Source of the DNA: Methylobacter sp. KS41
Lineage (GTDB): Bacteria > Pseudomonadota > Gammaproteobacteria > Methylococcales > Methylomonadaceae
Assembly: GCA_002862125.1 (NCBI GenBank)
Contig: PHSP01000003.1
Location: 1,426,001-1,490,000 of the forward strand
DNA length: 64,000 bases
Direction: 5' to 3'
The notes under the pieces were generated by a model. That model saw only the letters and a list, made by a program, of their open reading frames with translations. It made no database searches and had not been told where the DNA came from. Shown here piece by piece: positions 52,342 to 54,187 of the stretch (positions within the stretch are counted from its first letter, which is position 1; every line of letters begins with the position of its first letter). The position numbers and the translations under genes were made by a program.

Positions 52342-52395
52342 TCAACTATAAACCGGAAATCGCGCGCAAAGGTTACTGACTTTTTCACGCACCAG
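52342..52395 (-). pseudogene. duplicate of the last 17 codons and stop of glyA
   Basis: Read on the minus strand, this segment encodes [17 protein letters not shown] and a TGA stop, exactly the C-terminus of the intact GlyA ending at 52934. The two DNA copies (52342-52395 and 52934-52987) share 47 of 54 bases. The seven differences fall in six codons (TTG/CTG, AAG/AAA, AAT/AAC, CTA/CTT, GCA/GCG, AGG/CGA) and none changes an amino acid. Beyond the 54 bp the similarity stops abruptly. It is either the original glyA 3' end displaced by an integrated element, or a relic of a second glyA. Confidence 0.85.
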
Positions 52396-52404
52396 TAACA
52401 GTTG

Positions 52405-52428
52405 GTTGGGTTACATGAGTAACCCAAC
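52405..52428. repeat. perfect GTTGGGTTAC palindrome
   Basis: GTTGGGTTAC (52405-52414) and GTAACCCAAC (52419-52428) form a perfect 10-bp stem with loop ATGA. It belongs to the GTTGGGTTA...TAACCCAAC class of REP/MITE-like palindromes. It lies ten bases inside the segment bounded by the two glyA ends. Confidence 0.6.
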
Positions 52429-52485
52429 ACGTAGACGATGAGTAAGGGTTTTGTCGGGAGCAATCACCAATCCGATCTAAGCTGC

Positions 52486-52728
52486 TTAATCTCGAGAGGG
52501 GTAGATTCCCTCCATGCAAATGATGTAGATTAAGTTTGGAGCTGGAACAGCTTTGCGTAAATCAGGTAGCCCAAAAGTAGTTCGCCCGTCTCCACCGAAC
52601 TGGGTTCCCAAGAGCGAGAACAAAGCTGTGTTCTGAGTAATATTTAGTAACTGCCCGTCACAGAGCGCCCAGCCCTTTGGAACAAAGGTGCCAGCGAATA
52701 ATTTAACGATGCCAAGGTATTCATCCAT
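52486..52728 (-). CDS. miniature phage-tail-collar domain protein (MdpB-like)
   Basis: An 80-residue protein starting MDEYLGIVKLFAGTFVPKGWALCDGQLL. A strong GGAGG site six bases upstream fixes this start over a longer in-frame one at 52785. The first 55 residues are a tail-collar domain (ITQNTALFSLLGTQFGGDGRTTFGLPDLR), then the chain jumps to LIYIICMEGIYPSRD, the usual C-terminus of MdpB/microcystin-dependent-type proteins, which are normally about 170-180 residues. The middle (VPIG...VTLT...HTH) is missing in frame. Short members of this type exist, so it may be functional. Confidence 0.75.
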   Translation of the reverse strand: MDEYLGIVKLFAGTFVPKGWALCDGQLLNITQNTALFSLLGTQFGGDGRTTFGLPDLRKAVPAPNLIYIICMEGIYPSRD

Positions 52729-52933
52729 AGTGTCCTCCAAGGGGAAATGATAATTAAAACTTTCTACGCTGGACTGACTTTGCAAGCCGAGTCCAAAACG
52801 TTTTGTTGCGCTGCAAACAAGTGAATATGTTTGCAGCGGTGGGAGCTTAAGCTATTAACTCAAGGCTCCTGAAGCAATCAATCCATAGTGCTAGTCCCGC
52901 TTAGGTCGAGCTGGCGAAGCCGGCTTCCTATTA

Positions 52934-54187
52934 TCAACTATAAACCGGAAACCTTGCGCATAGATTACTGACCTTTTCACGCACCAAGGCAATCACTTCT
53001 TCGTCTTCGATGTTTTCCATTACGTCACACATCATGTTGGCGATTTCAATCATTTCCTCTTCCTTAAAACCGCGCGTGGTCGGCGCAGGCGTGCCGACAC
53101 GGATCCCGCTGGTGACAAAAGGCGATTGCGGGTCGTTGGGCACGGCGTTTTTGTTGACCGTAATGTGGGCGCGGCCCAGTGCGGCATCGGCCGCTTTGCC
53201 GGTAATGCCTTTGGCAATCAGGGAAACCAGCATCAGGTGGTCGTCAGTGCCGTCTGAAACCACATCAAAACCACGCTCGATAAATACTTTGGCCATGGCC
53301 TGGGCGTTTTTAATGACTTGTTGCTGATAAACGCGGAACTCAGGCTGCATGACTTCTTTAAAGGCAACGGCTTTCGCGGCGATAATGTGCATGGACGGAC
53401 CGCCTTGTATGCCCGGAAAAATAGTGGAATCAATTTTTTTCTCTATTTCGGGATTGCTTTTGCACAGAATGAGACCGCCGCGCGGACCGCGCAGGGATTT
53501 GTGCGTAGTGCTGGTAACAACGTCCGCAAAAGGAACCGGGTTCGGATATAAGCCGGCTGCGATTAAACCGGCGACATGCGCCATATCGACGATAAAATAA
53601 GCGCCGACTTTATCGGCAATGTCGCGGAACCGTTGCCAATCCCAAACGCGCGAGTAAGCGGAAAAGCCGGCAATAATCAGTTTTGGCTTATGTTCCTGGG
53701 CCAAAGCTTCAACTTGCTCATAATCGATTTCACCGGTCCAGGGATTTAAGCCGTATTGAACAGCGTTGTAAATCTTGCCGGAAAAATTGGGTTTTGCGCC
53801 GTGTGTCAAGTGACCGCCATCGGCCAGACTCAGGCCCATGATGGTATCGCCCGGTTGGATCAGCGCCATGAAGACCGCCATGTTGGCCTGGGAGCCCGAG
53901 TGCGCCTGTACGTTTGCGTAATCAGCGCCAAATAGCTCTTTGGCGCGGTCGATAGCCAGTTGCTCGACTTTATCAACAAATTCACAGCCGCCATAATAAC
54001 GTTTGCCCGGATAGCCTTCGGCATACTTGTTGGTCAACTGCGAACCTTGAGCTTCCATGACGCGCGGACTGGCGTAATTCTCCGAGGCGATTAATTCGAT
54101 GTGATCTTCCTGACGTAAGCGCTCTTCTTCCATCGCCTGAAACAGTGCATCATCAAAACCGGCTATGGACATGGATTTTTTAAACAT
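52934..54187 (-). CDS. glyA: serine hydroxymethyltransferase
   Basis: A 417-residue PLP enzyme: [63 protein letters not shown], and the PLP lysine in [13 protein letters not shown] (K230). Length and ending (LCARFPVYS) are normal. It makes serine from glycine and methylene-H4F, the carbon-fixing step of the serine cycle. Its final 54 bp are repeated at 52342-52395 with only synonymous changes. It starts 12 bp after the glycerate kinase gene and is probably transcribed with it. Confidence 0.97.

Follow-up and report, generated by a model that had tools for sequence, protein, structure and literature searches.

The window, by which we mean the whole stretch of 64,000 nucleotides analysed, carries an intact glyA gene (Table 1) followed by a gene that we take to be fhs. 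The last part of glyA occurs a second time on the same strand, 592 bp (~0.6 kb) from the present glyA end. We refer to the copy that is part of the gene as the present end and to the other as the stranded end, and to the DNA that separates them as the insert. The two ends differ at 7 of 54 bases, spread over six codons, and all seven differences are synonymous; the translation is identical at 17 of 17 residues, so that a replacement end of this type leaves the host protein intact. The similarity has abrupt edges, with agreement at only 10 of 50 bases just beyond the repeat on the glyA-body side and at 2 of 50 on the 3' side. Both the duplication and its sharp edges had been described from the letters alone (hereafter the sequence-only reading), and its coordinates, strand, length and count of silent differences prove to be exact. 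When the 2.2 kb downstream were shuffled 60 times, no match to the tail had fewer than 23 mismatches, and chance is therefore excluded as the source of the repeat. A glyA match is present in 56 of 61 genomes. Scans of the window for tRNA genes and Rfam families gave no matches, so the insertion target is not an RNA gene.

Table 1. Coordinates of the features at the glyA 3' end (positions in the window).
Feature	Position	Strand	Evidence
glyA, serine hydroxymethyltransferase, 417 aa, intact ORF	52934-54187	-	Pfam SHMT 1.2e-176
Present glyA end, 17 codons plus stop, putative incoming replacement	52934-52987	-	
TCAGTAA, 7-bp spacer in present end, candidate crossover (suggestive only)	52965-52971	-	
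Insert, 538 bp, no DNA relative found outside the collar gene	52396-52933	.	
Phage-tail-collar-domain gene, 80 aa	52486-52728	-	Pfam Collar 1.4e-27 (as 99-aa ORF 52486-52785)
Perfect palindrome near the insert's far end (arms 10 bp, loop 4 bp)	52405-52428	.	fold z -3.82 for 52396-52440
Stranded glyA end, probably ancestral (3' part at least)	52342-52395	-	copy comparison and relatives' flanks
TCAGTAA in stranded copy	52373-52379	-	
Probable ancestral glyA 3' flank	52283-52341	-	G276, 59 bp, 81%; parts with G029 and G019; G021 by eye

The collar gene is probably the 80-residue ORF rather than the 99-residue version, which begins at an upstream TTG; a GGAGGA motif lies six bases ahead of the ATG of the shorter frame. 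Even with as many as three mismatches allowed, the window has no second palindrome of this pattern, and other matches in the genome to the 91-bp insert end that holds it are at chance level only. The repeat and insert have no match among phages and plasmids. Among 301 genomes of the order the insert matches 12, one of which is its own genome (G000), and the other eleven matches are short stretches (68-84% identity), all within the collar gene. In genome contigs, 155 stretches encode a collar relative, and among the best 80 of these 155 there are five that align over the whole or almost the whole of the 80 residues (58-70% identity), from Manganitrophaceae, Oxalobacteraceae, Anaerolineae, Paenibacillus and Methylococcaceae. 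At six loci with short collar genes, inspected by eye, the neighbours are unrelated, with no common element and no integrase. A promoter and terminator scan returned no terminators and one promoter-like site (1.1 expected), and neither 3' flank folds better than shuffled sequence (z 0.73 and -0.90). The sequence-only reading had regarded the collar gene and palindrome as what is left of a site-specific element; both features are present, with the collar ORF refined as above, and they may be such a remainder. A further 7-bp inverted repeat, seen by eye and possibly due to chance, lies at 52372-52399, with GTTACTG spanning the joint and CAGTAAC inside the stranded copy.

The two ends compared with relatives

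DNA behind glyA was fetched from relatives and 108 loci were oriented, of which six have less than 1 kb behind the gene and the other 102 have 1 kb or more; G307 supplies two contigs to this set, and L114 and L209 (both from G243) were left out, being without a usable glyA end. Alignment with this DNA, a check proposed in the sequence-only reading, places the stranded copy next to the glyA 3' flank of the relatives. In G276 the alignment with the flank of the stranded copy begins at the very first base after the glyA stop codon (E 1.2e-7). The flanks of G029 and G019 are weak matches alone (E 0.11 each), and these genomes align over 104 and 111 bp respectively when flank and tail are taken together; G021 carries the flank motif, as read by eye in the alignment. 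The flank of the stranded copy occurs after glyA in these four relatives, which represent two genera, and it is absent from the alignment rows of G176 and of G013, which by glyA DNA is the closest relative within the genus. The insert has no match in the downstream regions of the 108 relatives, searched on the same strand, beyond one of 17 bases (E 0.40). Along the locus, the gene body leads into the present end, after which come the insert, the stranded end and the relatives' 3' flank. Because this flank lies behind the stranded copy and the insert is in none of the 108 loci, the stranded end is most probably ancestral and the present end probably arrived with the insert, a reading of the sequences that draws on other species in place of a same-species empty site. 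By raw distance, 64 of the 108 ends are nearer the stranded copy, 25 nearer the present end and 19 tied, a count that is only a pointer because the rows are related and C-terminal extensions shift them. The nearest of the relatives' ends has six differences from the stranded end and seven from the present end, and the two ends differ from each other by seven.

The silent differences bear on the relationship between the copies. With one copy selected and the other neutral, about 35-37% of changes are expected to be silent (treating changes as independent and ignoring mutation bias), and seven of seven has a probability of 0.0006-0.001; duplication in place with a neutral relic thus fits poorly. 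The pair behaves like the glyA ends of two lineages, in keeping with the sequence-only reading that both copies have been selected as a glyA terminus. Two independent glyA ends are nonetheless rarely so silent, since between-genome pairs with 5-9 differences encode identical 17 residues in only 44 of 499 cases, and we count this against the leading reading given below. Both copies have leucine at the first tail codon, which is uncommon among the 108 relatives and is also found in G029, G013 and G176, so the donor of the present end probably belonged to the same group. A comparison of 33 rows from other species, in which one locus is represented twice and the nearest row is 11% away, shows no clear jump in distance along the glyA body and is uninformative about a donor tract upstream of the joint.

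Stranded ends were sought elsewhere with a 22-residue glyA-end query, which recovers the stranded copy in G000 at E 7.7e-7 and which ends much shorter or more diverged than that of G000 would escape. Of 237 family genomes, 217 have a glyA-end match and 20 have none, and a stranded end is recognised in G000 alone, with 12-14-bit hits in four genomes set aside. Eight other family genomes with several matches were re-listed together with G243, and gave long-frame glyA-like hits, contig ends and 12-14-bit hits. A sample of 369 genomes from the class has a match in 320, and no stranded end is recognised among the matches listed; in 36 other genomes with several matches the second hits are long-frame glyA-like or weak partial ones, and short-frame hits in G499, G574 and G472 are close to contig ends, as judged by coordinates. 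The sequence-only reading had looked to the repeat as an insertion boundary in other genomes, and no such case is recognised in the 236 other family genomes or among the class-sample matches listed.

Several candidates were set aside. In G243, considered as a contig break at the repeat, the second piece of glyA runs only to residue 90, where its contig ends, and the genome is thus uninformative on the repeat. In G307 glyA and fhs occur together on two contigs, one of them truncated by the contig's end; given 7% contamination this is not counted as a stranded end. In viral contigs a glyA-end 24-mer has no exact hit and an 18-mer has a single one, in an unrelated phage gene; in genome contigs, a 28-mer taken from the present end has none. 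The glyA-end peptide matches phages at four weak places, two in annotated glyA genes and two in unannotated records. Our literature search found no report of glyA as an integration site of this kind in the portions of sources available, and a search on prfC and guaA found nothing.

Possible routes to the end swap

That incoming DNA swapped the glyA end is well supported; how it did so is not. Among the mechanisms, site-specific integration needs the fewest assumptions, and homology-facilitated illegitimate recombination is a close rival. We assign a probability of about 0.48 to the reading, made from sequence comparison, that foreign DNA was inserted at the glyA 3' end by a tyrosine recombinase acting near TCAGTAA. 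The DNA would have entered carrying replacement last codons, with the crossover in a shared core, and the old glyA end and its native 3' flank would have been displaced by 592 bp. The rest of the element and its integrase would then have been lost, or would never have been present if the piece was moved in trans.

A 7-bp spacer is a feature of tyrosine-recombinase cores. TCAGTAA lies in an 8-bp block identical in both glyA ends, and when the empty site is rebuilt from the left half in the gene and the right half in the stranded copy, this spacer is surrounded by an imperfect inverted repeat pairing at 9 of 11 arm positions, a pattern that was sought post hoc and is equalled by 6 of 329 controls. 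The arms pair at 8 of 11 positions in the stranded copy, 6 in the present end, at best 6 in the rebuilt incoming site, and at most 8 in the ends of the 108 relatives. The glyA-end similarity ends 16 bases before the spacer, approximately one core arm. The block and its arms are suggestive of a tyrosine-recombinase core.

A home-made profile built from 14 integrases of G000 finds no integrase in the window, and there is no PF00589 match inside it. Applied to 491 kb behind the 108 glyA genes, the profile finds one gene, in G143, which we take to be XerD-like, and one weak hit; the G143 gene is in an ordinary gene neighbourhood and was rejected as a mobile-element integrase. The whole of G000 contains 32 PF00589 matches; some 100 kb separate the site from the nearest of them, and no glyA-end-like core is present in 99 kb around 30 of them. 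The sequence-only reading had suggested a search for integrases flanked by the 54-bp repeat, and in these scans no partner integrase for the site was found. With no integrase in the window, we file the insert as the footprint of an end swap and not as an intact integrative element. Of the earlier proposal of site-specific integration, the incoming synonymous end and the stranded old end are supported, and site-specific recombination is a candidate mechanism only. As a separate observation, the 32 PF00589 matches lie on C1 and C3 of G000; six have internal stops, and four matches stand in a row at C1:652-656 kb.

It is possible, with somewhat less confidence, that no integrase was needed: a fragment with the glyA end of a related bacterium and the DNA that follows it would have crossed over by homology inside glyA, with an illegitimate joint 54 bp before the native stop. 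Homology-facilitated illegitimate recombination of this type is described in PMC3240628 (available portion), and recombination is reported at the core genes beside many hotspots that lack recognisable mobile elements in the accessible part of PMC5635113. The glyA-fhs gap is a site of cargo including defence and toxin-antitoxin genes with no mobile-element integrase seen, and homologous plus illegitimate recombination in such a hotspot yields the same architecture. A ComEC-family protein is present, which alone is no demonstration of competence. However, the insert follows glyA in none of the 108 relatives, and this route does not predict a symmetric 7-bp spacer at a distance of one core arm from the left edge of the similarity.

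The reverse order, with the present end and insert older and the stranded end and the DNA beyond it derived from a relative, is unlikely. It would give the same junction, and G013 is without the flank of the stranded copy, but this flank is found after the glyA of G276, G029 and G019 (and of G021, as judged by eye), and the insert does so in none of the 108 relatives. It is less likely again that the 592 bp are by themselves a minimal but complete mobile cassette, composed of the collar gene, the palindrome and a glyA-end attachment site and moved in trans by an integrase encoded elsewhere; if so, an essential gene would be kept working through a recoded silent copy of its end. Least probable is that the insertion event duplicated 54 bp locally, or that the stranded copy is left over from a second glyA (the alternative named in the sequence-only reading), with drift afterwards. 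This would account for the shared 17 residues and their uncommon first-codon leucine but sits poorly with the exclusively silent changes and the unrelated flanks of the two copies, and neither a second, longer glyA nor a further remnant of one was found in the genome.

Known systems and the glyA-fhs gap

Prophage e14 of Escherichia coli inserts in the 3' end of icd, supplies a replacement end, and strands the old icd 3' piece of 163 bp at its far side (PMC6379469, accessible portion). The layout is the same at glyA, with a replacement end and a stranded old end; e14, however, is a prophage for which an Asp/Glu replacement is mentioned in that portion, whereas the glyA site spans 592 bp with one collar gene, no integrase and exclusively silent differences. 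Because this kind of event is known from e14 in icd, we place the glyA case with that kind of footprint. Replacement ends are already familiar from mobile DNA, and glyA adds a clean if modest case. The islands and prophages that integrate in dusA also use a protein-coding target, at its 5' end and with an integrase family present in over 200 bacteria (PMC4482086, accessible portion). The glyA site differs in being at the 3' end, and nothing recurrent was found for it.

CIME-type elements are integrase-less and lie between attL and attR. Related end sites enclose integrase-less cargo both in these and at glyA, although a partner element or integrase for the glyA site was not found. Core-gene hotspots without integrases resemble the glyA-fhs region in having variable cargo between two core genes, but a plain double crossover in such a hotspot would leave no stranded gene end, unlike at glyA. 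The stranded end would be a polarised footprint of one exchange, of a type that integrase-less hotspots may seldom leave. If the end swap is correct, glyA belongs among the protein-coding genes open to replacement of their 3' end by foreign DNA, and attention is drawn to the glyA-fhs gap as a place of exchange for defence and toxin-antitoxin genes in this family.

In 34 of the 69 oriented loci with fhs after glyA, no more than 201 bp separate the two genes. The other 35 gaps measure 340-4119 bp and so exceed 300 bp, with variable cargo between conserved neighbours, as in core-gene-flanked hotspots without integrases. The profile scan behind the 108 glyA genes saw no mobile-element integrase in this cargo. 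The cargo includes, among proteins chosen for analysis, restriction-modification, TIR, AbiC-like, HEPN and toxin-antitoxin genes. Pfam matched six of eight chosen proteins (TIR, HEPN, SfiI-type restriction enzyme, AbiC-like, PIN and PemK-like), and PADLOC matched four of five (a type II methyltransferase, two AAA ATPases similar to defence proteins and, weakly, TIR). The variable gap corresponds to 50735-52933 in the window, and is also seen in loci L032-L050 and L114-L128. One example is L120 (G263), where an SfiI-like restriction enzyme (Pfam 1.5e-91) and a type II methyltransferase lie between glyA and fhs. In the window, 50825-51438 contains a PIN-domain gene and a DUF2281-like partner, the latter below the Pfam cut-off, and the glyA-fhs gap of G013 holds DNA that matches this stretch at 86% identity over 753 bp.
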